Shown here one piece after another: positions 2,360-34,453 of a DNA stretch of 35,036 nucleotides. Made by a program: the position numbers and the translations under genes. Within the stretch, counting starts at the first letter, position 1, and each line of letters begins with the position of its first letter. Source of the DNA: Candidatus Aquidulcis sp. (GTDB lineage Bacteria > Chloroflexota > Anaerolineae > Anaerolineales > UBA4823). Under the pieces are notes generated by a model. That model did no database searches and was not told the DNA's origin. It saw nothing but the letters and a program-made list of their open reading frames with translations. Location of the stretch: NCBI GenBank assembly GCA_020723385.1, contig DYIZ01000041.1, positions 1 through 35,036 on the forward strand, written 5' to 3'.

Positions 2360-2430
2360 CGACCCGGTGCCACGCCTTTGTGTCTAAAACAGGGGGTTCT
2401 ATGACGATTTTGGTAATCCTATCCTTTTAC

Positions 2431-2460
2431 AGCAGCGGCCACTATCTGGTAGCCGCTGCT
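2431..2460 (+). promoter_or_regulatory. Leader hairpin ahead of dnaN
   Basis: AGCAGCGGC (2431-2439) pairs with GCCGCTGCT (2452-2460). Only 21 bases separate it from the dnaN ATG, of which eight are the ribosome site GGAGGTGA, leaving no room for a promoter in between. Confidence 0.65.
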
Positions 2461-2481
2461 ATTTCATTCACGGAGGTGACC

Positions 2482-3633
2482 ATGAAAATTCAAGTTCTGC
2501 AAGAAAACCTGGCCCACGGCCTGGCGATCGTCAGCCGCGCCGCCAAAACCAACTCGACCCTGCCGGTACTGCAAAACGTGCTGCTCGCTGCCGAAGGCGG
2601 GCAGCTCAAGCTGGCTGCCACCGACCTCGAGGTGGCGATTACCTGCCAGGTGGGGGCCAAGATCGAAGCCGAGGGAGCGGTGACCATCCCGGCCAAGACG
2701 CTCGAAGACCTGGTGAAGACCCTGCCGCCCGAGGCGGTCAGCCTGGCGCTTGACGTGGAAACCCAGACGCTGCACGTGCGCTGCGGGAAGTCGAAGACCC
2801 AAATCAAGGGCATTGACGCCCAGGAGTTCCCGCCCCTGCCCTCCGCCGCCGGCCAGGAGGTCGTGATCGCCGTCGGCGAGCTCAAGGCGGCCATTTCACA
2901 GGTCACACCTTCGGCATCCGACGAGGAATCCCGCCCGGTGCTCACTGGTGTTTACATCCTGGTCAGCGGCAGCCAGGCGACCCTGGATGCCGCCGATGGA
3001 TACCGCCTGACCCGCAAAAGGATCGATCTTTCTTCGCCAGTGAAGCAGGCTGTGGGAGCCATCATCCCGGCCAGGGCGCTGGAAATGCTGGCGCGCATCC
3101 TGCCGGACGAGGGCGACCCTTCGACAGGCTCAGGGCAGGCTGTGACTATTGCCATCTCCGCTACTCAGGTCTTCTTCAAGGCCGGCAACGTGGAGCTGGT
3201 CTCACAGCGCATCGAAGGCCAGTATCCCAATATCAACGATGTGATCCCAAAGACGCATGCCACCCGCTCGACCCTCGCGACGGCGGCTTTCCTGAACGCC
3301 TGCAAGCAAGCCAACATCTTCGCCCGCGAGGGCCAGGGGCTGGTGCAGCTGAACGTGACGTCCAACAATGGCGCGCCGGGCAGCCTGGCGCTCCTGGCGC
3401 AGGCCGAAGAGACCGGACAGATCGAGACGGTCATCGAGGGAGCCAACGTCGAAGGCGGCGAGTTGATGATCGGCGTCAACGTGCGCTTCCTGCGCGAGAT
3501 CCTGGGGACGATCAAGACTCCCAGCGTGGCGATGGAAACCAACCAGCCCACCACTCCGATCATTTTTCGACCGGTGGGCGACGACAGCCTGCTGCACGTG
3601 CTGATGCCTATGCACGTGCAGGCAGCCAGTTGA
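2482..3633 (+). CDS. dnaN: DNA polymerase III beta subunit (sliding clamp)
   Basis: 383 residues from ATG 2482, chosen because GGAGGTGA (2472-2479) sits just upstream; the open frame extends further 5' but through the leader hairpin. Family marks: MKIQVLQENLAHGLAIVSRAA, NSTLPVLQNVLLAA, EEFPPLP-like QEFPPLP, SDEESRPVLTGVYI, the DGYRLTR strand and a C-terminal hydrophobic HVLMPMHV tail. The three-domain clamp encircles DNA and tethers polymerases through QLxLF-type peptides. At residues about 213-220 a copy of the TTCGACARGCTCAGGGCAGG repeat is inserted in frame (peptide PSTGSGQA), in a region that should tolerate a loop. A clamp encoded beside ssb on an element lacking a visible replicase suggests it modifies host replication or serves element-specific partners. 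Confidence 0.95.
   Translation: MKIQVLQENLAHGLAIVSRAAKTNSTLPVLQNVLLAAEGGQLKLAATDLEVAITCQVGAKIEAEGAVTIPAKTLEDLVKTLPPEAVSLALDVETQTLHVRCGKSKTQIKGIDAQEFPPLPSAAGQEVVIAVGELKAAISQVTPSASDEESRPVLTGVYILVSGSQATLDAADGYRLTRKRIDLSSPVKQAVGAIIPARALEMLARILPDEGDPSTGSGQAVTIAISATQVFFKAGNVELVSQRIEGQYPNINDVIPKTHATRSTLATAAFLNACKQANIFAREGQGLVQLNVTSNNGAPGSLALLAQAEETGQIETVIEGANVEGGELMIGVNVRFLREILGTIKTPSVAMETNQPTTPIIFRPVGDDSLLHVLMPMHVQAAS
3118..3141 (+). repeat. In-frame TTCGACAGGCTCAGGGCAGG repeat inside dnaN
   Basis: One of three copies in the window (others 26225 and 29375). It reads as PSTGSGQA in the dnaN frame and replaces no recognisable clamp motif. Confidence 0.8.
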
Positions 3634-3643
3634 GGTTATTCTA

Positions 3644-3871
3644 TTGTCAGCCAACAGCATTTCACTGCGACGCCTGATCCGGCGCGGCGACCTGAGCATC
3701 TACGAGGCAGTTGGGACGGTTTTCCGCGTCCATCTTGGCTGCCCGACGCAGTATGGCCTATCCTACGCCATTCTGCGAGGCCGCAAGTGTGTTTTCTCTG
3801 GCCGGTGCAGGAAGGCAAGAGAAGCCTTGAATCAGGCGATGCAGTGGATCCAAACAGGAGGTGGAAAATAG
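3644..3871 (+). CDS. Small unknown protein (75 aa)
   Basis: Starts with TTG at 3644; a GAGG overlapping the dnaN stop provides a plausible ribosome site 7-8 bases upstream, so it would be co-translated with the clamp. The product is short and basic, with an SLRRLIRRGDLSIYEAVGTVFRVHLG start, two cysteines (CVFSGRC) and a C-terminal helix (ALNQAMQWIQ). I do not recognise a family. Codon use matches its neighbours and a leader-hairpin region begins right after it, supporting a real gene. No function is proposed. Confidence 0.5.
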   Translation: MSANSISLRRLIRRGDLSIYEAVGTVFRVHLGCPTQYGLSYAILRGRKCVFSGRCRKAREALNQAMQWIQTGGGK

Positions 3872-3900
3872 GGATAACCACACAACGAAATCCCACGATT

Positions 3901-3953
3901 ATCAACCAGGGCCTTCGAGCGCGCTTTCTCGCTTCGAAGGCCCTGGCTTTGAT
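3901..3953 (+). promoter_or_regulatory. Long leader hairpin
   Basis: Perfect 13-bp stem 3906-3918 with 3934-3946 (arm CCAGGGCCTTCGA), extended outward by ATCAA/TTGAT across a 2-base bulge. It is followed at once by a second hairpin and then the gene at 4040. Confidence 0.7.
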
Positions 3954-6410: not shown

Positions 6411-7202
6411 TTGAATACCAAATCCACGTTTGTCCCGACTTTCTTGATCGCACTGCTACTGGCAGCCTTGACCGTCCTGTTTCTGGCTGGCTGCGGGCAA
6501 GATGACCGGCAGCCATCCGGCGAACTGCCGCCACCCGGAATGATCGTCTACGTCGGACGGGTGACCGTCCTGGCCGGGCTGCCTGCCGGTGCAGATGGTT
6601 GTGAGCCATCCTTGTACGCCGCCGAGTGGGAAAAGGCCGGCTGGAAGGTCTCGCTCACGCCTAAGAATTCTGATGAGCTGACGCCCGATTGCACCATCTA
6701 TCCCAACGCCGGCGTCCCGAACCAGTGGTTCGGGATGTGCGAGGGGGCGGTCAACGTGCCTCGCGATGGCGCGCCGCTCATCACCGTCATCCTCGACGAC
6801 GGCGATGAGCGGCGCGCCATCGCCTGCCCTGAGGCAGCGATGAGCCAGGCCCACGCCCCGCCCGCTGTGATCGAGTTAGGGAGCAAAGATCAGTTGATGA
6901 TGTATGCCCTGCTCCCTAACTCGCCCATCGAGCAGACTTGCACTGAGTGCAGCGAACGTGTCGCTGTTGTCTTGCTTCAGCTTTCGCCCGAAGCCCGGCA
7001 GGAGGTGTTGGAGTACGCCCTGGCGCTGCTGGGCGAGACTGAGCTGGAAGAGCCGCAGCCGGCGCAACGCGCCGAATCCAGGCCGGGCAATGGCGGCGGC
7101 TATATCGAGATCAAAACCATCAAAGGCCACCGCTATGCCTACCGCCGCTGGCGGGAAGGCGGCGTTCTGAAGTCCCAGTACATCGGGAAAGTGAAATCCT
7201 GA
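6411..7202 (+). CDS. Putative lipoprotein with C-terminal DUF6788-like tail
   Basis: 263 residues from TTG 6411, fixed by GGAGGTGAACC immediately upstream. Residues 1-28 are a lipoprotein signal: hydrophobic TFLIALLLAALTVLFLAGC with lipobox LAGC, C28 as the lipid site. The mature part begins Gln/Asp/Pro-rich and carries several Cys residues (CEPSLY, CTIYP, CEGAV, CTECSE), perhaps disulfides. The last 36 residues (GYIEIKTIKGHRYAYRRWREGG to YIGK) resemble the short basic DUF6788-like domain. Residues about 155-171 are encoded by a GTTAGGGAGC palindromic repeat inserted in frame. It would be anchored outside the membrane; its role is unknown. Confidence 0.7.
   Translation: MNTKSTFVPTFLIALLLAALTVLFLAGCGQDDRQPSGELPPPGMIVYVGRVTVLAGLPAGADGCEPSLYAAEWEKAGWKVSLTPKNSDELTPDCTIYPNAGVPNQWFGMCEGAVNVPRDGAPLITVILDDGDERRAIACPEAAMSQAHAPPAVIELGSKDQLMMYALLPNSPIEQTCTECSERVAVVLLQLSPEARQEVLEYALALLGETELEEPQPAQRAESRPGNGGGYIEIKTIKGHRYAYRRWREGGVLKSQYIGKVKS
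6872..6923 (+). repeat. GTTAGGGAGC palindromic repeat, copy 1 (intragenic)
   Basis: 14-bp arms: 6872-6885 (CGAGTTAGGGAGCA) with 6910-6923, 24-base interior. It adds in-frame codons to the lipoprotein gene. Related copies are at 13378 and 28804, and a half-site is at 28563. Confidence 0.75.
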
Positions 7203-13487: not shown

Positions 13488-16400
13488 ATGTCAATGCACT
13501 GGACAGAAAAGCAAGCCGCCGTGGCCCGCATCGGCGAGGAGCTGGGGTGCCGCGGCTGGACGTTGTTCGGTTATTCGCCTGACCGCTCCGACGGCAGGAC
13601 GGATTACTACTGCCCTGCCAGTTGGGACGGGATCGCTACTCACCCCGAACATCCCGGCGTCGTTGTGTGCGTGGCGGTGGATAGCGACTGTCTTCAGCGC
13701 CTGCCCGATGACTGGCCCGCAGTCGAGAACCCCACTCCGAAGGGGCGCGCCTGGCACGTCGAGATTGGTGGTCGGATCATGAGTTCAGGCACAGGGTTGT
13801 CTGACGCCATTCGTGGGGGCGACAAAGGCAAGGGCGCTGCCCGGATCTGCGACCAGATCGAGGCGGCTGCCTTTGCGAAGCCGGCCTCGGTGGAAAGCAC
13901 AGCCCAGATCGGGGATACAAACGTCAGCCGCGAGCGTGACTGGACCTGGCTCACCTTCCCAGCCAAACCCGACGAGGCGGTACGCGGCGCTCTCAAATCT
14001 GCCGGGGCAAGATGGAGCAAGAAACGCGCCGCCTGGTTCTTCATCCGCACGGTCTCCGACGAGGAGATTGCGGCGCTGCTCAACAAGACCGGCGGCAGTC
14101 AGATCGAGAATAACTGCGATGATGACCTGCCCCCAACCCACACCCTCACGCCCGAGGAAGCTGCGGCGCGCTGCTGGCGTGACCCCGGCCTGCCGCAGTA
14201 CATCGTCTCCATGAGCGATGTGGATCGTCTGCCGTACACGATGAACGATATAAGCCGCATCGAGGTGTACTGCATGGGGCGTGATGTGGTTCTCACAACC
14301 GGCGAGATGGTTGCCATCGCCGGGTTCGTGACCACCAGCGGACATCCATACATCGAAGTCCTGGCCGATGGCAAGGAAAGCCTTTTTGCACCTGCTCACA
14401 TCTGCGAGCCGCCCGAGGGCCGCCGCCTCGTCGCCAGGCAGTTCATCAAGGGAGTGCTGCTCGATGAAAACCAGGTGACAGCGCTGGAACGGCACATTGC
14501 TATGCTGCCCGAGGTAGCACGGCCCTGGCTGGATCTTGGCCGGCGGGATGCCGTGCTGCCTGAAGGGAAACGGACTACGCTGGTGGAAACGCCGGCAGCC
14601 GAGGTTGCCCAGACTTTTCCACCCGGGTGTTCTTTACCCGCCGGGTGTTCTGTACCCGCACTTACAGTTGGCGCTGTTCTGGAAAGCAAAAGTTGGAATG
14701 GCGGCGGTACAGAACACCGCTTTGGAATCTCGCTTCCTTCTCCAGAGCTGGAGGATATCTGGACTGCCAATCTCAGCGTAGGCAGCGCGTATGACTATAT
14801 CCCTGAATGGGCCAGGCCGCATATCCCGAAGCTGTATGCCTGCGAAAAGGCCGCGGAGACGAGGGAAACCCCCTTGGCCTATATCAAGCTGTTCACGCCC
14901 GATAGCAGTTGGACCTGGTACATCATGGAATATGACCCCGCCGAAGAGCTGTGTTTCGGCCTGATCATTGGCCACGAGACCGAGCGTGGCTACTTCTCGC
15001 TCAAAGAACTGCGCCAGGTACGCGGCAAACTTGGCCTGCCCATCGAGCGGGAACTGTGGACAAGGCCCACGCCAGTCAACGAGTTGCCTGAATACCAGGA
15101 GGAATGGGGCGACGGCGGCCCGTATCCGAGAAAAACGCCTGCGGGCTTGACCCAGGCGCAAGAGCCGGTCGAGAGCCAGCCCGCAGAATTTGACACGCCT
15201 CCCACTCCCGAATCGCTCGCCTGGCACATCCTGCGTGAAACCGAAGACACAGACTTTCTGATGACCTTGGCCCGCCAGTGCGCCAGGGATGCCGGCGAGA
15301 CTGAACCGGCCGCGATCCCCGACTACCTGCGCCTGCTCGAAGCGGAGCGCGACTTTCGGGAGATGAGCGGCCAGGCTGCGCTTTGCCAGGCGATTGGCGA
15401 CCTGATCGAGCGTCTGGCTGATCTGGGTTTCACGTCTGAGGGCTTCCAGGAGAAAGCCTCCCCTGCCGCGTCGCAGGTGAGCGAGACCAGAGAGCCGGCA
15501 GCAGCCGGGACGACTGAACCGCGAGCCGACCAGTCTGTCGTTGGTGTCGCACCCACCAATGGGGGCGAGGGCGCTACAGAACTGCGCACCAGTACGCTTC
15601 CCCAACTCTCTGCTGATGTAGTTGGGCCGGAGCCGTTAAAGCCAGCCGTGGCCGCAGCGGCAGCGCCTCTCCCCGACCGCTGGACTGTGGACGATGTGCG
15701 CTTCCTGTTGAACAAGCTGGACGAGGGCGTGCGAGCGCTTGTCTCCGACACGCAGCTTGGCCTCCCCACCATCCACAGCATTGGGGGCGAGGTCGAACAC
15801 TGCGGCTATGGCCTGATGTGCCTGAAAACGCCTGAGGTGGAGTTGACCTTCGATGCCGGCGGGGCGATGCAGCGCACACCCTCCGGGCAGGGCTGGTCTC
15901 AGCTGCGGGTCAACCGTGGCGAGTATCCGTATGACTTCGAGGCGGCGAAGGCGAAGCTGGCCGCGTACCTGCCATCGCCTGATGTCGCCGCCGCGCCCGC
16001 CGCGCCACGCGCAGCCGCTGAACGCAGCGCGCCGCTTGCCAGGGCACACACAGGCAGCCAGCTCGATCCAGACGTTCTCGACGCTTTGTCTCACTCGACC
16101 TGCACCGATCACCGGCTGATCCTGCCTGCCCAGCTCGAAAGAAAGCTGTATGATCGGGTAAACGAAGTCCTTACCCGCCTGGGCGGGCAGTGGAAGAGCG
16201 GCAAGGTAAAGGCGCACGTCTTCGAGGAAGACCCAGCGCCGCTGGTGGCCGAAGTTCTGGCCACCGGTATCATGCCGCCTAAGAACCCGCTGGGTTTCTA
16301 CCCCACGCCGGACGACCTGGTTGACGAAGTTATCGGCCAGATCACAGTCGGGTCGCCAGAAGCAATCCTAGAACCCTCTGCGGGCGAAGGCGCCTTTGTC

Positions 16401-17180
16401 AAAGCGCTGCTTGCCAGGTTCCCCAGTACCCGAATCGTTGCAGTGGAACTCGACCCGAAACGGGCAGCGAAGCTGCGCCAGCTTGGGCCGCGAGTGCAGG
16501 TGGTCGAGGGCGACTTCCTGCAATACAACGCCTGTGGGTACGATCTCGTCGTGATGAACCCGCCCTTCGCCGTCGAACGGGATGCTCTCGAATACATCGA
16601 ACATATCAGGCACGCGCTCGCCTTACTAACACCCGCCGGCCAGCTGCTCGCAATCGTCCCCGCTGGGCTGAAATTCCGCAGGGACCGGCGCACGAGCGAG
16701 CTGCGCGCTCTAATCGAGCAGAACGGCCAGATCGAAGATATTCGGGCTGGGGCATTCGATGTATCGGGTACAAGCGTCTCTACTGTGCTGGTAGAGATGC
16801 AGAAGCCGGCGGCCGCCTCGCAAGGAGCGGCGATCATGCCGGATCAGCCTGCCTATCCCTTCACCAAGCAGATTTTCGGCAAGGATGCCATAGACTTGCT
16901 CCGCCAGGCGGCGGCGATTGTGCCGGACATGACTGGTTTTGGCAGCGAGTGGACGCCGGAAGACGGTGCAGTGTTCAACCAGTGGGAACTGGAGCTGGTC
17001 ACCGGGCGCACAGACAAGAAGGCCAGCGCCTTCTACAAGGCCTTGACCGAAATCCATACCCCCGGCGCGCTGCACATCGCCCTGACCCGCATCAACACGG
17101 TGTTCTTTACCGCCGGCGACCGCCGCCGGCGGGAGGCCATCGAAGCCCGGCTGGCGGCCATCGAGAAGGCACTGGCATGA
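13488..17180 (+). CDS. Giant DUF2958 / N6-adenine methyltransferase fusion (1230 aa)
   Basis: ATG 13488 after AAGGAGGT. Segments in order: an N-terminal domain (1-130, unknown); a short WTWLTFPAKPDEAVRGALKSAGARW module (about 148-205) seen in plasmid proteins; a DUF2958-like domain (about 440-545: PHIPKLYACEKA, SSWTWYIMEYD, LCFGLIIGHE, GYFSLKEL); a low-complexity linker; a middle domain (about 720-830); a class I methylase (about 930-1110) with motif I E962-P-S-A-G-E-G and catalytic N1024-P-P-F, specific for adenine N6 by family rule; and a helical tail. Micro-hairpin repeats encode residues about 380-391. It likely modifies element DNA, for example as an anti-restriction methylase. No cognate nuclease is adjacent. 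Confidence 0.85.
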   Translation: MSMHWTEKQAAVARIGEELGCRGWTLFGYSPDRSDGRTDYYCPASWDGIATHPEHPGVVVCVAVDSDCLQRLPDDWPAVENPTPKGRAWHVEIGGRIMSSGTGLSDAIRGGDKGKGAARICDQIEAAAFAKPASVESTAQIGDTNVSRERDWTWLTFPAKPDEAVRGALKSAGARWSKKRAAWFFIRTVSDEEIAALLNKTGGSQIENNCDDDLPPTHTLTPEEAAARCWRDPGLPQYIVSMSDVDRLPYTMNDISRIEVYCMGRDVVLTTGEMVAIAGFVTTSGHPYIEVLADGKESLFAPAHICEPPEGRRLVARQFIKGVLLDENQVTALERHIAMLPEVARPWLDLGRRDAVLPEGKRTTLVETPAAEVAQTFPPGCSLPAGCSVPALTVGAVLESKSWNGGGTEHRFGISLPSPELEDIWTANLSVGSAYDYIPEWARPHIPKLYACEKAAETRETPLAYIKLFTPDSSWTWYIMEYDPAEELCFGLIIGHETERGYFSLKELRQVRGKLGLPIERELWTRPTPVNELPEYQEEWGDGGPYPRKTPAGLTQAQEPVESQPAEFDTPPTPESLAWHILRETEDTDFLMTLARQCARDAGETEPAAIPDYLRLLEAERDFREMSGQAALCQAIGDLIERLADLGFTSEGFQEKASPAASQVSETREPAAAGTTEPRADQSVVGVAPTNGGEGATELRTSTLPQLSADVVGPEPLKPAVAAAAAPLPDRWTVDDVRFLLNKLDEGVRALVSDTQLGLPTIHSIGGEVEHCGYGLMCLKTPEVELTFDAGGAMQRTPSGQGWSQLRVNRGEYPYDFEAAKAKLAAYLPSPDVAAAPAAPRAAAERSAPLARAHTGSQLDPDVLDALSHSTCTDHRLILPAQLERKLYDRVNEVLTRLGGQWKSGKVKAHVFEEDPAPLVAEVLATGIMPPKNPLGFYPTPDDLVDEVIGQITVGSPEAILEPSAGEGAFVKALLARFPSTRIVAVELDPKRAAKLRQLGPRVQVVEGDFLQYNACGYDLVVMNPPFAVERDALEYIEHIRHALALLTPAGQLLAIVPAGLKFRRDRRTSELRALIEQNGQIEDIRAGAFDVSGTSVSTVLVEMQKPAAASQGAAIMPDQPAYPFTKQIFGKDAIDLLRQAAAIVPDMTGFGSEWTPEDGAVFNQWELELVTGRTDKKASAFYKALTEIHTPGALHIALTRINTVFFTAGDRRRREAIEARLAAIEKALA
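14624..14658 (+). repeat. Tandem micro-hairpins, GTTCTTT and GTTCTGT loops
   Basis: CGGGT-GTTCTTT-ACCCG (14624-14640) and CGGGT-GTTCTGT-ACCCG (14642-14658), one base apart, 18-base period, in frame. Confidence 0.8.
14704..14720 (+). repeat. Micro-hairpin, inverted orientation
   Basis: GCGGT-ACAGAAC-ACCGC, loop GTTCTGT on the minus strand, 45 bases after the tandem pair. Confidence 0.75.
15571..15587 (+). repeat. Degenerate micro-hairpin, inverted
   Basis: GCGCT-ACAGAAC-TGCGC; four of five stem pairs hold. It lies in a linker of the methylase fusion. Confidence 0.45.
17098..17112 (+). repeat. Degenerate micro-hairpin
   Basis: CGGT-GTTCTTT-ACCG, 4-bp stem, near the 3' end of the methylase gene. 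Confidence 0.45.
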
Positions 17181-17521
17181 TCCCCTTCCCCACCACCATC
17201 GAAGTAGCTGCCAATGTCTTTGTGGCGGTCCGGGATGGCGGGCTTTGTCGCTTCGACGACAACCCCGGCGCGTTCTGCCCAGCGCAGACCTGCTTCGACG
17301 ACCAGGCCAATTTCCTGGTGTTAGTTGCCCTTCTCTCTCCGCAACTGCTCGGTGGAGAAGGGCAGACGCCGCCTGAGCGCCGCGCGCAGTGGGCTTATCA
17401 AACGAGCTACGCGCGCCGGTTTCTTCAGCGCACCTTGCCTGCACTCAAAGCCCGCCTGGCGGCGCTGGGCGAGGCGGATGCTGTAAAGACGGCTATAATC
17501 CACCCAGGAGCAAACCGATGA
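17177..17521 (+). CDS. Small unknown protein (114 aa)
   Basis: ATG 17177 overlaps the methylase stop by ATGA, so it is translationally coupled. The product begins IPFPTTIEVAANVFVAVRDGGLCRFDD with cysteines in LCRF, FCPAQTC, followed by a hydrophobic NFLVLVALLSPQLLGG and a basic helical end (RRAQWAYQTSYARRFLQRTLPALKARLAALG). No family is recognised. It forms a three-gene unit with the methylase and the DUF4160-like gene. Confidence 0.65.
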   Translation: MIPFPTTIEVAANVFVAVRDGGLCRFDDNPGAFCPAQTCFDDQANFLVLVALLSPQLLGGEGQTPPERRAQWAYQTSYARRFLQRTLPALKARLAALGEADAVKTAIIHPGANR

Positions 17522-17784
17522 GCCAAACTGTCTTGCAGGCCGGCAGCCTGGTTTTCTGGCTGCACACCTACGATGTGGTCAATGACGAGCGCCCCAGCGT
17601 CAATGTGGGGAAAAACGCGCCGGACGCTCGCCGGGATGCCAAGCTCTGGCTGGAGCCGGAGATCGAGATTGATCTCCCTGGCAGCACGCTGAGTGTCAGC
17701 GATCTGCGCAGAGCGATCAAGGCGACTCAGAAGAACCGCCAGGCTTTGATCGAAGCCTGGAAAGCTTCTCGGTGCGAAAGCTGA
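17518..17784 (+). CDS. DUF4160-like protein (88 aa)
   Basis: ATG 17518 overlaps the previous stop by ATGA; AGGAG at 17506-17510 supports it. SVNVGKNAPDARRDAKLWLEPEIEID followed by SDLRRAIKATQKNRQALIEAWKA matches the DUF4160 pattern (small sheet with AKIWLEPEIE-like strand, then a long helix ending near a Trp). DUF4160 proteins often accompany a DUF2442 partner in presumed toxin-antitoxin pairs; none is present here. It is the last gene before a terminator. Confidence 0.7.
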   Translation: MSQTVLQAGSLVFWLHTYDVVNDERPSVNVGKNAPDARRDAKLWLEPEIEIDLPGSTLSVSDLRRAIKATQKNRQALIEAWKASRCES

Positions 17785-17824
17785 GCCGCCGGCGAGTGAA
17801 GCCGGATCGAGCCATCAAGTCAAT

Positions 17825-17880
17825 GCCCCGCCCTGAGCGTCGAGCCAACTGGCTTGCCGCAGGGCGGGGCGTTTTAGTCT
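17825..17880 (+). terminator. Terminator of the methylase operon
   Basis: GCCCCGCCCTG (17825-17835) pairs with CAGGGCGGGGC (17860-17870), enclosing a smaller AGCC/GGCT hairpin; GTTTTAGTCTTT follows. Confidence 0.75.
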
Positions 17881-17885
17881 TTGAA

Positions 17886-18014
17886 CTATAACAGGTCGAA
17901 CTCGAAGGCAGCCACGGCTTCCGGGTCGCGCTTGGCCTTGCGAGCGGCGCGGTAGGCCTGGTATAGGTTGCTAAACTCGCAGATTTGCGGATAGAGGTTC
18001 TTGTAGATATTCAA
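17886..18014 (-). pseudogene. N-terminal stub of a DGR-type reverse transcriptase
   Basis: On the minus strand a TTG at 18014 opens a 42-codon frame beginning MNIYKNLYPQICEFSNLY, continuing QAYRAARKAKR and ending AAFEFDLL at a TAG (17886-17888). This is the characteristic first segment of reverse transcriptases of diversity-generating retroelements and related group II-like RTs (YKNLYPQIC, NLYxAYRxARKxKR, FEFxL). The catalytic domain with YxDD is missing: after FEFDL the reading frame stops and a terminator for the opposite strand follows. It lies 125 bases downstream of the kinase-FGE gene in the same orientation, the usual place for a DGR RT. It cannot be functional as it stands. Confidence 0.75.
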
Positions 18015-18139
18015 GGCTCAAAATGCCACAAAATCCCGCCCATCTGCTGTTCTTTGGTTGCAGAACACGGATGGGTGAATTGCAACGGATAAGACACTGG
18101 GCAGAAGGTCATCCGTTCAATTCCGCCAATCCGCTGTTC

Positions 18140-20182
18140 TCATGGGGAAGCGGCGCAACGAAAACCAATGTGGAGGCCTCTGCCACCCTGAATACCATTA
18201 TAGCGATCGGATGTACGAACAAATTCCCCATCATAATACCAACTTCCCCCGCGCAATCCCCGATAGCTGCCGCTGGATGGGCCAGTAGGGTTTTTGTACG
18301 GTGCTGATAAATAATAAATTGAAACATACCAGTCGTTTATCCACTCCCATACGTTACCTGCCATATCATAAACTTGATAGGGGCTAACTCCCGATTGAAA
18401 TGAGCCAACAGGAGCAGTCTCCAGATAATTATCACAGTTTGGGCCTCCTGGAACAACATAACTATCGAACTGTGTCTCATCATCAAAATTTCCTTTGCGA
18501 CAGTCAAATTTATTACCCCACGGGTAAATGCGTTCATCTGTCCCGCGTGCAGCCTTTTCCCACTCTGCCTCTGTTGGCAGCCGTCTTCCAGCCCATTCAC
18601 AATAAGTTTTGGCATCATTCCAACTTACCTGTACGACGGGGTAATCTATTAATCCACTTGTACCGCTAGATGGCCCATGTGGGTGTTGCCAGTTTGCACC
18701 ATTCACCTCTACCCACCCATTGCCCAACCATGCGATAGCCCATCCTTGGATTTCGGAATCCGTTTGGTAATCAGTAGCAGCTACGAATTCTGCAAACATG
18801 GCGTTGGTTACCTCAACTTGATCTATCCAGTAGGCGTCCAGGTAGACAGTATGAATAGGCTTTTCGTCGTCGGCACCATCGTTGGAACCCATCGTGAAAT
18901 CTCCGGCCGGCACGTACACCAGCGTCATGCCATCCTTGGGCGAAATCAGCGTCGAGCCAATCCCCGGCCTGAGGGTCGGGGTGGCAGTAATCGGCAATGG
19001 CTTCGGTGTGGCCGTCGGCGTGCGCGTCAAACTGAGCGCCAGGGCCGTTAGAGTGCCGTGAACGTCAACTGTTGGGGTCGGATGGATGAACATACTCCCT
19101 ATAACCACCGTCAACACCACAACCAGAAGCGCCAGCGCGCCCCCGCCTGCCCCAATCCAGCCCCACGGCAGGCGGCGTTTCTGCGTCAGCGGCGCGTAAG
19201 CCGTGCCTGGCGCAGCAACTTGCGGGGCGGCTGTTGGCTGTACGGTCGGGTACACCGTCATCAGCGGTTTTGCAGGCGGCGGCGTTGATGGATGACCGGC
19301 GACCGATGACGGTAGACCGTTGACCGCCGACGGCTGACCGCTGACCGCAGCTTTCAATTCAGCCGCGCTCTGAAACCGCTGGTCAGGCAGGAGCGCCATG
19401 GCTTTCAAGATCACGGCTTCGGCCTGGATAGAAATGGCTGGATTCAGGCTGCGCGGCGTGGGTAGCGGTCTGCCCCCTATACGAGCGATACTCTCGACCG
19501 GCGTTTGCCCGGTCAGCGCGGTATACACCGTGGCCCCCAGGGCATACACATCCGTGCGGCTGTCGGTAGGTTCCTGCCCATACTGCTCGAAAGGTGCGTA
19601 GCCCGGCGTCACCGCCCGCGCCCCCAGCGTTGTACGCTTCAGCGGATCATACAGCTTGGCGATACCAAAATCCACCAGCATGGCGGTTCCATCCGGGCAA
19701 ATACGAATATTGGCCGGTTTCAAATCGCGGTGGATGATGGGCGGCGTACGCGTGTGCAAATAAGTGAGCGCGTCGCAAATCTGAGCAAACCAGGGTAATA
19801 CCTGCGCCTCCGGCAATCCGCTGACCGCTGAACGCTGAACGCTGACCCCGGTGTTCTGTACCGGCGCTTCCAGCTTCGTCTGCAAATCCTCCCCCTCAAC
19901 GTACTCCATGACGAGATACTGCCCCTGTCCCTGCACCGAGAAGTGATCCATCACCTTTGGCAGGTTGGGGTGGCGCAGGTTGGCAAGGATGGAAGCCTCG
20001 CGGGCAAACTGCCGCGCGGCTTCCTCCCCAATCTCGAAATTCTCCTTGACGGCGCAAGGGGCATTCAAACGGGTATCCCAGGCTTTGTACACCGCCCCAA
20101 ATCCGCCCTGACCAAGCATTTTGACGATGCGGTAACGACCGATCAGCACCGCTCCGGTTTGTAATGGCGCATCAATTGGCAT
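18140..20182 (-). CDS. Ser/Thr kinase - FGE-sulfatase fusion; candidate DGR variable protein
   Basis: 680 residues from ATG 20182, with CTGGAGGG upstream on the minus strand. Kinase domain 17-275: glycine loop GQGGFGAVY, K46, E64, H151-R-D153 and D171-F-G, APE-like APFEQYG, all intact. A Pro/Thr linker precedes one membrane span (about 341-364), then FGE-sulfatase (C-type lectin fold) 417-680 with GMTLVYVPAGDFTMGS, RRLPTEAEWEKAARG, AGNVWEW and final IGFRC. The kinase is thus cytoplasmic and the lectin-like domain outside. The C-terminal segment GGSWYYDGEFVRTSDRYN (645-662) has the form of a DGR variable region. Heptamer repeats encode two loops (about 113-124 and 280-298). Confidence 0.85.
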   Translation of the reverse strand: MPIDAPLQTGAVLIGRYRIVKMLGQGGFGAVYKAWDTRLNAPCAVKENFEIGEEAARQFAREASILANLRHPNLPKVMDHFSVQGQGQYLVMEYVEGEDLQTKLEAPVQNTGVSVQRSAVSGLPEAQVLPWFAQICDALTYLHTRTPPIIHRDLKPANIRICPDGTAMLVDFGIAKLYDPLKRTTLGARAVTPGYAPFEQYGQEPTDSRTDVYALGATVYTALTGQTPVESIARIGGRPLPTPRSLNPAISIQAEAVILKAMALLPDQRFQSAAELKAAVSGQPSAVNGLPSSVAGHPSTPPPAKPLMTVYPTVQPTAAPQVAAPGTAYAPLTQKRRLPWGWIGAGGGALALLVVVLTVVIGSMFIHPTPTVDVHGTLTALALSLTRTPTATPKPLPITATPTLRPGIGSTLISPKDGMTLVYVPAGDFTMGSNDGADDEKPIHTVYLDAYWIDQVEVTNAMFAEFVAATDYQTDSEIQGWAIAWLGNGWVEVNGANWQHPHGPSSGTSGLIDYPVVQVSWNDAKTYCEWAGRRLPTEAEWEKAARGTDERIYPWGNKFDCRKGNFDDETQFDSYVVPGGPNCDNYLETAPVGSFQSGVSPYQVYDMAGNVWEWINDWYVSIYYLSAPYKNPTGPSSGSYRGLRGGSWYYDGEFVRTSDRYNGIQGGRGLHIGFRCAASP
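18152..18250 (-). other. Putative DGR variable region (VR)
   Basis: Encodes residues 645-677 of the kinase-FGE protein. Codons TAT TAT GAT, GAT, TAT AAT GGT share third base T and differ at positions 1-2, as expected from adenine-directed mutagenesis of AAT codons. A 5-bp stem (18131-18135 with 18149-18153) surrounds the stop codon. No matching template repeat was seen in the window. Confidence 0.5.
19291..19346 (-). repeat. Degenerate heptamer array (eight units)
   Basis: Eight consecutive 7-base units close to GCTGACC on the plus strand. It encodes the VSGQPSAVNGLPSSVAGHP linker of the kinase gene. Confidence 0.7.
19819..19846 (-). repeat. Heptamer array (four units)
   Basis: CGCTGAC, CGCTGAA, CGCTGAA, CGCTGAC on the plus strand, directly followed by a micro-hairpin. 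It encodes an insert in the kinase domain. Confidence 0.7.
19848..19864 (+). repeat. Micro-hairpin CCGGT-GTTCTGT-ACCGG
   Basis: Perfect 5-bp stem with the family loop. It joins the heptamer array and encodes PVQNTG on the minus strand. Confidence 0.75.
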
Positions 20183-20372: not shown

Positions 20373-20395
20373 GCCATTTCCAGGAGGTGAAAAAC

Positions 20396-21289
20396 ATGCA
20401 AATACCGATCTCCAAAATCCACCCCAACCCCGACCAGCCCCGCAAGCACTTTGATCCGGACGAGTTGGCCGCCGTGGCTGCCACGATGCGCCAGCACGGC
20501 GTTCTCCAGCCAATAACCGTGTTCGAGGTCGAAGGGGAATACATCCTCGAAGACGGCGAGCGGCGCGTGCGCGCCGCGAAGCTGGCCGGCCTGGCGGAGG
20601 TTCCGGCCCGTATCCTGCCGCCGAAACCGGGCGGGTACGACAGCCTGGTACGCGCGGCCATCGCCAACATCCAGCGGGCGCGGCTCACGCCATCCGAGGA
20701 AGGCCATACCTTCAAACGCCTGCAGGACGAGCGCGGCTGGCGCGTGGCGCAGATCGCCGCCGAGTTCGGCCTGTGCGAGCCGACGGTCAAGAACCGCCTG
20801 GCGGTCGCCCGGCTGGACGAGCCGATCCAGCAGTGGATAGACCAGGGCCGCCTGCCCTCCGACCAGCGGGTAGTCGAGGCATTACTGGCAATCCCCGATG
20901 CACAGATGCGCCTGGCGCTGGCCGGGAAGCTGGCCGAGCGCAAGGCTGCCATCAAAGTGTGCTTGGCAGCCTGCACGAAGCTGAACGCGCCGAAACCGAA
21001 GGCCCGCACCGCGAGCCGCATCGCTCGATCCACGCCCGCCGAAGGCCAGGCGCGCTGGAACGCGTTCAGCCAGGCCGGGCAGCTCCCGCCCTGGCCGATG
21101 TTCAACCGGGCAGTGGCTGCGGCTTGCGAGAAGACCTGCACGCTGGCCGGCGAAGCCGACGGTGCGGTCTGTAAGGATTGCCCGATGGCGCTCATGGTCG
21201 TGGGCTTGATCGAGGCCGCCGCTGCGGGAGCGAAGCCTGCCTGGCCGGTGAAGGAAGGATGCTCCAACCGGGCGTCTGCGCGACCATGA
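20396..21289 (+). CDS. parB: ParB family protein (PRTRC-associated type)
   Basis: 297 residues from ATG 20396 with AGGAGGTGA upstream. The ParB/Spo0J nuclease-like fold is clear: ISKIHPNPDQPRKHF, the Q39-P-I strand and the G54-E-R-R-V-R-A box that binds CTP in ParB relatives. A helix-turn-helix follows (VAQIAAEFGLCEPTVKNRLAVARL, about 115-138). The C-terminus holds four cysteines (C-x3-C and CKDC), a probable zinc site not typical of chromosomal ParB. No parA is nearby. A ParB relative heading a ThiF/JAMM cassette is the definition of PRTRC systems, and that cassette follows at 23623. Confidence 0.9.
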   Translation: MQIPISKIHPNPDQPRKHFDPDELAAVAATMRQHGVLQPITVFEVEGEYILEDGERRVRAAKLAGLAEVPARILPPKPGGYDSLVRAAIANIQRARLTPSEEGHTFKRLQDERGWRVAQIAAEFGLCEPTVKNRLAVARLDEPIQQWIDQGRLPSDQRVVEALLAIPDAQMRLALAGKLAERKAAIKVCLAACTKLNAPKPKARTASRIARSTPAEGQARWNAFSQAGQLPPWPMFNRAVAAACEKTCTLAGEADGAVCKDCPMALMVVGLIEAAAAGAKPAWPVKEGCSNRASARP

Positions 21290-24598: not shown

Positions 24599-25437
24599 TG
24601 GACGGCCACATCCCTTTTAGCCAGACCCGCGCCCGCCTGCGGCGACTCGCTACCCCAAAGATCGGGACGGCGCTCGATGAGCTGCAAAACGTGAGCAGCC
24701 TGCTCAACCTGATCGCGGTCGGCGCTGAATTGGGCGTCAGCCGGGCGATGACCTTGCACTTCTCGAATCTGGCGCAAGATGACAGCCGGCAGTGGGAACC
24801 GCTGGCCGAGGCGGTATACGACGAAATGGGCAAGCGCATTCCGCTCAACGACTTTTGGGCGGAAGGGATCATGGAAGGCGACGGCCCACCTGATTACATC
24901 CCGATTGCCCTGGGCAACCTGGCGACCAGTTGGGACGCGTTCGACGAGGTGGCCAACAATCCCGAAGACATCTCCCCCGACTGGGCCAGCGTCGCCTTTG
25001 CCTTCTGGCTCAATCACAGCCTGCTGGACGAGTATTGGGAGACGGCCGCCGCTCACTTCGGCTGGCCGGTTGACCAGTTGCCCGACTTTCTCAAGGCCGA
25101 CCCCGCCCCCGGACACAGGCGCTATATTGACTGTGAGCGCCTGCTCGTTTTGCTGGAAGAGGCGGGGTTATCCGAGTTTGGGGCAGCTTTTTCGATGAGC
25201 TGGTTCGAGACCGGCTCCCGGTTTCTCGACCTGGACGATCAGCGCCTTTCCGATGGGGGCGAAGCGCCCGAGCTGACCGTCGCTGCGCTGCGCTCCCTGA
25301 CCGCTGAAGCGAATATCGCCCGCACGACCATCGAGCAGGCCGAAGCGGCCAGCCAGCGCGCGGCAGACGATCCACAAATCTATCTGTGGCTGCTCGATCT
25401 CTACCGGGCAGCCTTGACGGAGGAAACAGATGATTGA
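24598..25437 (+). CDS. PRTRC protein F-like (279 aa)
   Basis: ATG 24598 overlaps the stop of protein C (TGATG). Helical throughout, with acidic and aromatic segments (PDYIPIALGNLATSWDAFDEV, WASVAFAFWLNHSLLDEYWETAAAHFGWP, GAAFSMSWFETGSRFL). No catalytic motif is visible. It occupies the F position in the cassette between C and B, and this synteny is the main basis for the call; the sequence similarity itself I cannot confirm. It ends with an 8-base overlap into the E2-like gene. Confidence 0.55.
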   Translation: MDGHIPFSQTRARLRRLATPKIGTALDELQNVSSLLNLIAVGAELGVSRAMTLHFSNLAQDDSRQWEPLAEAVYDEMGKRIPLNDFWAEGIMEGDGPPDYIPIALGNLATSWDAFDEVANNPEDISPDWASVAFAFWLNHSLLDEYWETAAAHFGWPVDQLPDFLKADPAPGHRRYIDCERLLVLLEEAGLSEFGAAFSMSWFETGSRFLDLDDQRLSDGGEAPELTVAALRSLTAEANIARTTIEQAEAASQRAADDPQIYLWLLDLYRAALTEETDD

Positions 25438-26122
25438 CTTCTTGATCTCACCCCCGCTGCAGCCGCCCTTCACGGCGATTGCCGAGCTGTATTGGCTCCC
25501 GGCGGGGCACTTCTTGTTCAGGCGGCGCGATGAGGGTCAGGTGATCTCGAAATTCGTGACCCTGGCCGATGTGTCCGCCGCTTTCACCGGCGTCGAGACC
25601 GACACCGGCTGGCTCCCGCCCGGCGTCGTGCGGGTCGGGTTTTGTAAGCATGGGCATTTTGCGGTCTATGCCGCGCCCGCCCAGACCATCACCTTGAGCC
25701 TGGTGGGTAACGGGGAAGAGGCGGCCATCATCGCACCCATCCCGGCGACGGTCATGCTGGGCGTCGGGCGCTCGTACTATATCACCGCCCTCCTGGCTGG
25801 CGAATTCTTGCCGGGCGCAGCGGCCTGCCATGCCCCGTTCCCGAACGTGCATCCCGATGGCGAGATTTGCTGGGGCGGCAACCACCCGCCGGAGGCCGAG
25901 CCGGAAAGCCTGCCCAAGGCGTGGGCGCTCTTTATGCAGTCGCCGTTCAACGATCACCTGATGGAAGGCAAATCTCGCAAGTTCTCTCTCGATGTGCGTA
26001 TCCAGTTACGCACGCTGGCGCAGAAGAAAGCCCGGCGCTACCCGGCCAAAGACCTTATAGAGCGCCGCAAGACGGTTTCAGCCTGGCTGGACGGGATTTT
26101 GGGAACAGGAGGGCGGTTATGA
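25430..26122 (+). CDS. PRTRC protein B: E2-like (Prok-E2_D) protein
   Basis: 230 residues from ATG 25430 after GGAGG. The central block HAPFPNVHPDGEICWGGNHPP (about 134-154) is the active-site segment of prokaryotic E2 family D: H134, P138-N139, and C147 as the likely thioester cysteine, comparable to the N-V-x-x-D-G-x-V-C-x-G pattern. Upstream strands (FGHFAVYAAPAQTITL-like) and a C-terminal helix complete the fold. In the family model it would receive the ubiquitin-like protein from the E1-like ThiF and transfer it. Stop and next start overlap as ATGA. Confidence 0.8.
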   Translation: MIDFLISPPLQPPFTAIAELYWLPAGHFLFRRRDEGQVISKFVTLADVSAAFTGVETDTGWLPPGVVRVGFCKHGHFAVYAAPAQTITLSLVGNGEEAAIIAPIPATVMLGVGRSYYITALLAGEFLPGAAACHAPFPNVHPDGEICWGGNHPPEAEPESLPKAWALFMQSPFNDHLMEGKSRKFSLDVRIQLRTLAQKKARRYPAKDLIERRKTVSAWLDGILGTGGRL

Positions 26123-26775
26123 TCGGCTACCTGATTGCCAAAGACCCTCTGCCCCCCTTCGACCGGAGCAAGCTCTACGAATACATCCTGGCGGGAAACG
26201 GCATCTTTATCCGGGCCGAGCGGCCCTTCGACAGGCTCAGGGCAGGCTCCGGGCTGGCCGTGCTGCTCCAACGAGTCTCATGCGAAGTGCGCGGCCTGCC
26301 CAGCCTGGACGAGTACGTCCACATCGAGCGCCTGCCGGAGGTGAGTCTCGACCTCATGCTGGCCGAGGTCGCCGACGCCCACCCCAACGAGGCACTGTTC
26401 TACGTGGTTGATAACGGCGGATCGTGGGACATCGTGATCCCGGAGCAGGTGCGCTCACCCAATCGCGTTGCGCCGGTCAACCCGGATGATCCGGCGGTGC
26501 AGCGCGCCATCGTCGAAATCCACTCGCACGGAAACAATGCCACGTTCCCATCGGACGACGATGACAGGGACGAGGCTTTCGGTTTCCGCATCTTCGTCAT
26601 CCTCGGTCGCCACCAGGAAGGATACCCTCTGATCTTCTGCCGGGTGGGAGTGTACGGGCAGTTCCAGGAAATCCCGGCTGAGTGGGTTTTCGAGAGTCTG
26701 CCGCACGATGTGAAGGATGTCTTCAGCCCTCAGGCGTGGGCGTGTCCCGAGGAGACGTGCGATGGACGCGATTGA
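26119..26775 (+). CDS. PRTRC protein A: JAMM/JAB metallopeptidase
   Basis: 218 residues from ATG 26119, overlapping protein B by ATGA. The metal motif is complete: H135-S-H137, seven residues, S145-x2-D148 in EIHSHGNNATFPSDDDD. This family removes ubiquitin-like tags or trims their precursors. Residues about 36-44 (PFDRLRAGS) come from an in-frame TTCGACARGCTCAGGGCAGG repeat near the N-terminus, away from the catalytic site. The gene overlaps the ThiF gene by 14 bases, so stoichiometry is probably controlled by coupling. Confidence 0.88.
   Translation: MIGYLIAKDPLPPFDRSKLYEYILAGNGIFIRAERPFDRLRAGSGLAVLLQRVSCEVRGLPSLDEYVHIERLPEVSLDLMLAEVADAHPNEALFYVVDNGGSWDIVIPEQVRSPNRVAPVNPDDPAVQRAIVEIHSHGNNATFPSDDDDRDEAFGFRIFVILGRHQEGYPLIFCRVGVYGQFQEIPAEWVFESLPHDVKDVFSPQAWACPEETCDGRD
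26225..26248 (+). repeat. In-frame TTCGACAGGCTCAGGGCAGG repeat in the JAMM gene
   Basis: Matches the dnaN copy at 3118-3141 base for base across CCTTCGACAGG and CTCAGGGCAGGCT. It encodes PFDRLRAGS here because the reading frame differs. Confidence 0.8.
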
Positions 26776-27565
26776 TATCACATTTGCCCAGGCCCGCAGG
26801 GTGATGGCTCCACACACCGAATGGGCCATCACCCTGTGCGGCTGCGGCGGAACGGGATCCTGGCTTGCGCCGCACATCGCCCGGCTGGCGCGGGTGATCC
26901 TGGACAAGACCGGGCGCAAAGTCCCGGTCGTTTTCTGCGATCCGGATGTGGTCGAGGCGAAGAACTGCTACCGGCAGAATTTCTCGTTTGCCGAAGTGGG
27001 GTGGAACAAATCGGAAGCCCTGGCCTTCCGATTGAACGCCGCCTGGGGGCTGGATATCGAGGCTTTCACCGGGCAGGTCAAAGACCTGCCCTACCAGCGT
27101 GAGCGGGTATTCGTCGGGTGCGTGGATAAGCCCGAAGGGCGGCGGCAGATCGCCGGGAAGCTCCAGAGCACGAGCTGGTGGCTGGACTGCGGCAACAGCC
27201 GCGACTGCGGGCAGGTGCTTCTCGGGCGCAAGGAGCGGCTGAAAAACGAGCAGCCGCTGGCCCTGGCTGGTTACTGCACCTGGCTGCCCAGCCCGGTCGT
27301 CCAGCACCCGGAGCTGCTTGAGGATGAGTCCGTCACAGATATCACCGATGATACCGCCGGGCTGTCGTGCATTGACCTGGCGCTGCGTGACGCGCAGTCG
27401 CTCTCGATCAACGCCCGCATCGCCGGTGAGTCCGCCGATTTCCTGTTTCGGTTTCTCTTGACCGGCAGCCTGCGGCGGTTTGCGACTTACATCAACCTGC
27501 AATCAGGCAGCGCCAGCTCGCGGTACATCACCTATGAGGAGATCAGTAAGTACCTGGCGGGCTGA
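26762..27565 (+). CDS. PRTRC ThiF-family E1-like protein
   Basis: 267 residues from ATG 26762. Nucleotide loop G27-C-G-G-T-G-S, D60 and D62 in FCDPDVVEAKN, then N68, R71-Q72-N73 and K83, all expected for E1/ThiF/MoeB adenylation of a C-terminal glycine. Later cysteines in GYCTW and GLSCIDLAL could carry the thioester; the SC-x-A-x-Q-x-L-x-IN stretch matches PRTRC ThiF proteins. No zinc CxxC pairs are evident. It is last in the cassette, followed by a terminator. It would activate the ubiquitin-like protein from 24152. Confidence 0.88.
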   Translation: MDAIDITFAQARRVMAPHTEWAITLCGCGGTGSWLAPHIARLARVILDKTGRKVPVVFCDPDVVEAKNCYRQNFSFAEVGWNKSEALAFRLNAAWGLDIEAFTGQVKDLPYQRERVFVGCVDKPEGRRQIAGKLQSTSWWLDCGNSRDCGQVLLGRKERLKNEQPLALAGYCTWLPSPVVQHPELLEDESVTDITDDTAGLSCIDLALRDAQSLSINARIAGESADFLFRFLLTGSLRRFATYINLQSGSASSRYITYEEISKYLAG

Positions 27566-33556: not shown

Positions 33557-33816
33557 GTACTATCCCTGTCAGTTTATCGCCCTTCTTCCAGGAATATGAT
33601 CTGGCGCATCTCGATCTTGAGCGTTCAGCCAGCACGATCATTGAGCGCACACTACACTATGGCACCCGGGTCGAGTTGCGATGGCTGTTTTCATGCTATC
33701 CCCTGGCGGTGGTTGCCAGGTGGGTGCGCCAGTGGGGACATTATGGCCTCCCTGAACCTCACCTGACTTTCTGGAGACTCATTTTGGACACTGAAGGACC
33801 CGCGACCCATGACTGA
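33553..33816 (+). CDS. DUF6922-like antitoxin candidate (87 aa)
   Basis: I choose ATG 33553 because its spacing to TAAAAT equals that of the first module; ATG 33547 is the alternative. SPFFQEYDLAHLDLERSASTIIERTLHYGTRVELRWLFSCYP and FWRLILD match the DUF6922 outline (PxLFWD-like start, IIERVLxxGTxxxxxWLxxxY, FWxLIL). DUF6922 genes commonly precede AbiEii-type nucleotidyltransferases. It overlaps the next gene by 8 bases. Confidence 0.7.
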   Translation: MSTIPVSLSPFFQEYDLAHLDLERSASTIIERTLHYGTRVELRWLFSCYPLAVVARWVRQWGHYGLPEPHLTFWRLILDTEGPATHD

Positions 33817-34453
33817 CTTGCACTGGGAAACGATTACACGAGAAATGCGCCAGGTAATGATCCACTTCGAGCAAAGCGATCTGACCGCACAGTTTTATCT
33901 GGGTGGCGGAACCGCCTTGGCTCTGCAATTAGGCCACCGCCGCTCAGTAGATCTGGACTTCTTCACACCGACCGAAGACGTTCCCACTATCCGGGAACGC
34001 ATCCTGGCCGCGTTCAAAGTTTACCAACCCATCGTAGCCGATCAATCGTGGGGCAATCTGGCGCTTTTGGTCAACAATGTTCGGGTGGGTTTTTATGGAT
34101 ACGGTTACGATATGGTTGCACCATTTATCCTGGCGGACGGTCTGCGACTTGCAAGCATTGCCGACATTGGCTTAATGAAACTGGACGCTCTGCGATCCCG
34201 CGCCAGCCGCAAGGACTTCCATGATCTGTATGCCATCGCCCAGGCGCTTCCCTTGCGGCAACTGCTCGACCTGGCTCCGGACAAATATCCATCCAGCCGG
34301 GACTTCGAGGCGCAAGTTGTGCGCTTTCTGGTGTTCTTCGATCGCGCCGAAGCCGAGGAGCCGCTCCCGTTAATGCAAGAAGTTCCCTGGGAAACTGTGA
34401 AGGATTTCTTTCGCCAACAGGCCATCTCCCTGGCAAAGAGCTGGCTGAAATAG
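33809..34453 (+). CDS. AbiEii/AbiGii-type nucleotidyltransferase toxin
   Basis: 214 residues from ATG 33809. FYLGGGTALALQLGHRRSVDLDFF holds the nucleotidyltransferase signature: GGG at 32-34 and D48-x-D50. KLDALRSRASRKDFHDLY is the conserved downstream helix of the AbiEii family. By family precedent it transfers nucleotides to RNA targets, giving phage abortive infection or plasmid addiction. The partner is the preceding DUF6922-like gene. A 19-bp hairpin follows. Confidence 0.85.
   Translation: MTDLHWETITREMRQVMIHFEQSDLTAQFYLGGGTALALQLGHRRSVDLDFFTPTEDVPTIRERILAAFKVYQPIVADQSWGNLALLVNNVRVGFYGYGYDMVAPFILADGLRLASIADIGLMKLDALRSRASRKDFHDLYAIAQALPLRQLLDLAPDKYPSSRDFEAQVVRFLVFFDRAEAEEPLPLMQEVPWETVKDFFRQQAISLAKSWLK

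Follow-up and report, generated by a model that had tools for sequence, protein, structure and literature searches.

The question raised by this locus is how an intact kinase-FGE gene, ending in a C-type-lectin segment in the style of a variable region (VR), came to be followed on the same strand by a frame of only 42 codons, and whether its binding surface is still being rewritten. It lies in the window, which here means the whole 35,036-nucleotide stretch of a Candidatus Aquidulcis sp. contig that was analysed. An earlier note had read the pair as a decayed diversity-generating retroelement (DGR) around a kinase-FGE receptor, and this reading is supported by the reverse transcriptase (RT) identity of the stub, by its distance from the target, which is canonical, and by a hairpin that follows the target gene. 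The explanation favored here, at a probability of about 85%, is a degenerate DGR that travels as cargo of a PRTRC-like mobile element and in which a single 3' truncation would have removed the machinery, with the target kept and its surface fixed. The features are collected in Table 1.

Table 1. Features of the kinase-FGE locus, in coordinates of the window.
Feature	Position	Strand	Remarks
Terminator-like inverted repeat just past the stub, before a convergent + strand gene (17518-17784)	17822..17873	.	arms 17822-17835 / 17860-17873, 93% complementary
RT stub	17886..18014	-	42 codons: TTG start, 41 RT-like residues, one further codon, stop
Long imperfect hairpin, beginning directly behind the stop codon of the target	18063..18139	-	shuffle fold test
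Kinase-FGE ORF, intact; probable former DGR target	18140..20182	-	680 aa; Pkinase residues 17-230, FGE-sulfatase residues 420-677
C-terminal tail GGSWYYDGEFVRTSDRYNGIQGGRGLHIGFRCAASP, candidate former VR	18143..18250	-	length as in 15/16 TR translations; core TR Asn columns all NNC/NNT
Candidate variable codons within the tail	18170-18238	-	columns compared with relatives' TRs

Judged by homology, the 42-codon frame is the N-terminus of a DGR reverse transcriptase. Its first 41 residues align without gaps to the N-termini of DGR-type RTs at 48-62% identity (alignment A1, 21 rows), and the stub matched the PHROG family phrog_1423 (reverse transcriptase) at E=2.3e-6. The top foreign match in a search of 400 genomes of the order was a 355-aa RT frame in another genome at E=3.4e-12. 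With the stub as the query, 29 of these 400 genomes matched at E<=1e-6, with identities of 48-67%, as did 14/61 relatives at E<=0.01, the own genome being included in both counts. Pfam and NCBIfam gave no match for so short a piece, and no stub match was found in phage records. The DGR RT signature that the earlier note had read at the N-terminus of this frame is thus borne out, and the failure to match DGR RTs in a profile search, which would have told against it, did not occur. An RT remnant homologous to DGR RTs therefore lies beside the kinase-FGE gene, as expected of a degenerate DGR; of the RT with a catalytic core that a functional DGR would carry, the locus retains 41 RT-like residues, and the remainder of the assembly yielded none.

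The kinase-FGE gene itself is intact, and its protein matched Pkinase at E=2e-37 and FGE-sulfatase at E=7.6e-69 in profile searches. FGE sulfatase-modifying enzymes carry an active-site cysteine pair in the C-terminal segment. This pair is absent from the kinase-FGE protein, in whose 36-residue tail the sole cysteine, by reading, is that of GFRC. GC3 is 0.45 in the FGE part versus about 0.69 in the kinase and linker parts, so that the history of the gene may be composite. The product would consist of a Hanks-type kinase in the cytosol, a putative membrane-spanning stretch at about residues 340-365, as read from the sequence, and a lectin-type domain on the outside, the loops of which the DGR would formerly have rewritten, as suggested by DGR biology and by the kinase-CLec targets described in the available part of PMC7517822. 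Among plasmid records 1171 matched the kinase-FGE protein, none over 80% of its length, and the FGE pattern gave no match in viral contigs. Another contig of the own genome, C163, carries a gene with two FGE domains (L003 42-1667, G000:C163), the resemblance of which to the kinase-FGE tail DNA is weak (75% over 52 bp).

The nearest FGE homologue outside the own genome (G052:C8, 57% identity) lies directly upstream of a DGR RT cut at residue ~198. The earlier note had held its reading open to doubt if the tails of close orthologues should prove invariant and never linked to an RT. This does not hold in full, because the nearest homologue precedes a truncated RT, but such linkage is rare, being found in 2/29 loci of related genomes (G052 and G013, in stretches of <=1.5 kb per side) and 0/53 genome_contigs loci.

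The anatomy of DGRs in relatives shows how the remains may be read. Adenine-weighted self-comparison revealed pairs of template repeat (TR) and VR in 19 of the 37 scanned loci, L039 having been left out of the 38 as it gave no RT match. Sixteen of the 19 pairs were used for anatomy and as a control, with L038, L041 and L137, which are split or otherwise arranged, omitted. In 12/16 the order is target, a gap of 66-153 bp, RT and TR; in L028, L035 and L037 the target is separated from the RT by the TR, and in the stub locus L040 the TR is found upstream of the target. At the kinase-FGE locus the distance from target stop to stub start is 125 bp. As this gap falls within the range of the 12 relatives with the target-RT-TR order, one 3' truncation explains the remains. 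Three other orders of the parts occur among the relatives, so the place of the lost TR, which would have been downstream of the RT, is uncertain; deletion of a TR from between target and RT was considered and dropped because most TR-bearing relatives have the TR downstream of the RT. Over 96 loci (L027-L122), the RT aligned along at least 340 residues in 24. In the one relative tested, L028, the RT matched RVT_1 and phrog_1423 and is followed by a gene matching bAvd and 'Avd protein of DGR'.

The hairpin that follows the target folds as well or better in 5/200 shuffled sequences (z -2.28). It bears, together with the spacing, on the proposal that the kinase-FGE gene was never a DGR target and that a piece of an RT came to rest next to an FGE gene of the ordinary kind. 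Most related FGE genes indeed have no adjoining RT, and NNY codons are common in FGE tails; however, strand, spacing and order match those of the 12 relatives with TR/VR pairs, the hairpin begins immediately at the target stop, and an FGE-type gene precedes the stub at 12 other stub loci too, which makes such an accident highly improbable. A 22-bp near-repeat (18032-18053/18119-18140) was also weighed as a possible IMH pair but set aside, since the sequence before its second copy is unlike a VR end. Past the stub, the inverted repeat may serve as a terminator. A MITE-like replacement of the RT was rejected, the own genome containing no strong second copy of the post-stub sequence.

The C-terminal tail of the kinase-FGE protein would correspond to a VR of C-type-lectin fold at the 3' end of the target, with the hairpin next to it, as in DGR targets. 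It has the length of the TR translations of 15/16 relatives, that of L136 being one residue longer, and it matches the TRs column by column when 12 of the 16 TR strings are compared (L028, L035, L037 and L136 omitted). At the 10 core columns, those with Asn in at least 9/12 TR strings, 10/10 tail codons have C or T in third position (p=0.0017 relative to the background of the FGE part itself). In a comparison of 38 FGE tails of one fixed length, the window's included, the mean was 8.2/10 and 7/38 reached 10, so that 6/37 other tails score as high, one of which (L206) has an RT stub itself. The earlier note had pointed to NNT codons at candidate positions. The observation stands, but as an argument it is weak: codon form alone shows little because NNY codons are common also in FGE tails without an adjoining RT, and NNT codons as proof of diversification were rejected on this ground. 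With no TR left for comparison, adenine-directed change in this VR is putative.

The rest of the machinery was sought in the own genome, a MAG of 95.55% completeness and 4.5% contamination. PF00078, which scores 62 bits on an intact relative, had no match at E<=1, and the A1 profile of RTs recovered the stub only. A blastn search of the genome for a TR with the DNA of tail plus gap gave, besides itself, a best match of E=0.0189; this and another at E=0.46 both fall on the double-FGE gene of C163. As a control, comparable local blastn in the search space of the own genome recovered 16/16 known TRs at E<=1.12e-27. Neither an adenine-weighted scan of 40 kb of the contig nor an adenine-weighted self-comparison at the window disclosed a TR or a TR/VR pair, respectively. 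The bAvd profile matched above its cut-off on contig C6 and below it on C63 and C221, but these three look like S23-type four-helix proteins from their sequences, and no convincing TR/VR pair was found near them apart from one weak 50-bp pair on C221. A matching TR and an accessory Avd gene, both expected of a functional DGR, were thus not found in the assembly. The near-repeat of the tail and the full DGR RT that the earlier note had proposed to look for were not found in this genome, in agreement with its statement that RT core and TR are missing. With the assembly 95.55% complete, their absence is strong, not final, as either may sit in the missing part.

These searches also bear on how the tail should be regarded, whether frozen or mutated in trans, which the earlier note had left undecided. 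The kinase-FGE gene and stub might represent a dispersed cassette, the VR of which is rewritten by an intact DGR that escaped assembly. Such service in trans would agree with the retained hairpin and VR-like tail, with about 4.5% of the genome that may be missing, and with remote targets lacking their own RT as published for cyanobacteria (PMC7517822, available in part). With no other DGR RT, no TR and no TR-like copy in the own assembly, it is not supported. Moreover, G245, G031 and G261 each possess a stub besides an intact RT, and adenine-weighted alignment of the stub tails there gave no fit to a TR of the intact locus, the best alignments having 19 non-adenine mismatches or none being found. 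Diversification in trans is accordingly improbable, and the frozen state holds as far as one assembly allows. Since the RT after its first 41 codons is gone beside the target, the binding surface, in all probability subject to rapid diversification in the past, is probably fixed at present; the ORF remains uninterrupted, and its product is most likely still a receptor kinase of the membrane whose lectin-type binding surface no longer changes.

Remnants of this kind recur. Beyond the window, RT N-termini cut after 23-198 residues are present at 12 loci of 9 other genomes, the contig extending at least 1.4 kb past the RT start in each (L030, L031, L032, L033, L039, L040, L042, L124, L125, L126, L127 and L184). 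L039 is weak, with E=0.0033 for its genome and no match to full RT queries. By reading of the tails, an FGE-type frame precedes the RT start by 75-331 bp in all 12. One of them, L040 (G013:C5, oriented), keeps a TR at 3853-3950 and a VR at 6999-7096 with an RT stub only, and a short-repeat array runs from 7249 on; between this TR and the nearby VR there are 15 differences at adenines and 3 elsewhere. TR and VR can therefore outlive the RT.

Breakpoints at or before RT residue 80 were found in 10/13 truncated RTs, the window included, from 10 genomes (naive uniform p=5.5e-6), or in 9/12 without L039, in a count where fragments shorter than about 23 residues are invisible, cut-offs differed between searches and several loci share a genome. 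L034 (N run at the break), L123 (contig end) and L036 and L043 (internal deletions) were left out, and the breakpoint of L126 was entered as 53, another alignment giving 64. This clustering could indicate that the N-terminal piece is retained because it is itself functional, either as a small protein or as a DNA/RNA element. However, conservation at third positions is no higher over the first 42 columns of the RT (0.355 vs 0.409 elsewhere, 46/53 windows scoring as high or higher), so that an RNA/DNA element in the RT 5' end is not supported; the stub of the window begins with TTG and, on reading, is preceded by no obvious ribosome-binding site, and C-terminal RT fragments occur as well, among the matches listed in a class-wide RT search. 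Such a function is exceedingly unlikely. A repeated path of DGR loss in this lineage, in which the receptor is kept and fixed and the RT is broken somewhere among its first ~80 codons, can be proposed only tentatively and is itself rather unlikely. If true, either a common mechanism of deletion would be indicated or selection by which useful receptor variants are locked time and again; the window would then be one such case, located on a mobile element.

The surroundings of the locus resemble a PRTRC-type mobile element in gene content. The PRTRC-like backbone of the window (2380-3633, 13488-17180, 20387-21289, 25430-26122, 26717-27565 and 33809-34453) comprises genes for ParB, an extra DnaN clamp, AbiEii and DUF2958 with a methyltransferase as well as matches to PRTRC_B and PRTRC_ThiF, both under the NCBIfam cut-offs; Prok-E2_D occurs in the window too. 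ParB was found at E<=1e-50 in two other genomes of the 400, and the stretches compared there (15.9 and 18.0 kb) gave no kinase-FGE match, so the kinase-FGE gene looks like cargo.

Based on these data, a course of events is proposed for the degenerate DGR. Ancestrally, the kinase-FGE gene with its C-terminal VR would have been followed by the hairpin, the RT and the further DGR parts including the TR. One 3' truncation after RT codon ~41 would then have taken the core of the RT together with the TR and any accessory gene, and would have brought the stub up against the terminator-like repeat that belongs to the convergent gene next to it. Deprived of this machinery, the receptor would keep one specificity. 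The locus shows a receptor kinase probably locked after losing its diversifying machinery, on an apparent mobile element, and the dozen similar remnants in related genomes make it possible to measure how DGRs die and whether selection on their targets persists afterwards.

Active and inactive DGRs are described in the available part of PMC8144416. Degenerate DGR loci have already been published, and the kinase-FGE gene with its stub is one more example; among the matches listed in a search of open-licence papers, none was on RT stubs in Anaerolineae. In Thiohalocapsa PB-PSB1, the accessible part of PMC10907252 describes degenerate DGR loci with RT or TR missing or pseudogenised. As at the kinase-FGE locus, machinery was lost there beside targets of C-type-lectin fold, one target set having FGE domains. 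In PB-PSB1, every class is also represented by a complete locus of the same genome, and parts were replaced by transposon or MITE-like arrays; for the window, the searches yielded no complete locus, and the post-stub sequence lacks a strong second copy. In Treponema denticola isolates, targets with RT and TR absent were likewise called remnants of core DGR components, but the portion available of PMC4891356 mentions no RT stub, and target type and host are different. Cyanobacterial kinase-CLec variable proteins share the C-terminal CLec domain on a Ser/Thr kinase, and one paralogue has remnant TR-VR homology and no nearby RT; it differs from the kinase-FGE locus in its cyanobacterial host and, as far as the excerpt of PMC7517822 goes, in having no RT stub left. 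Finally, the inverted repeat just past the VR recalls the target-site hairpin of the BPP-1 DGR, for which a requirement is reported in the part available of PMC3240598: the BPP-1 stem is of 8 bp with a proven role, whereas the hairpin after the kinase-FGE gene is long and imperfect, with a putative one.
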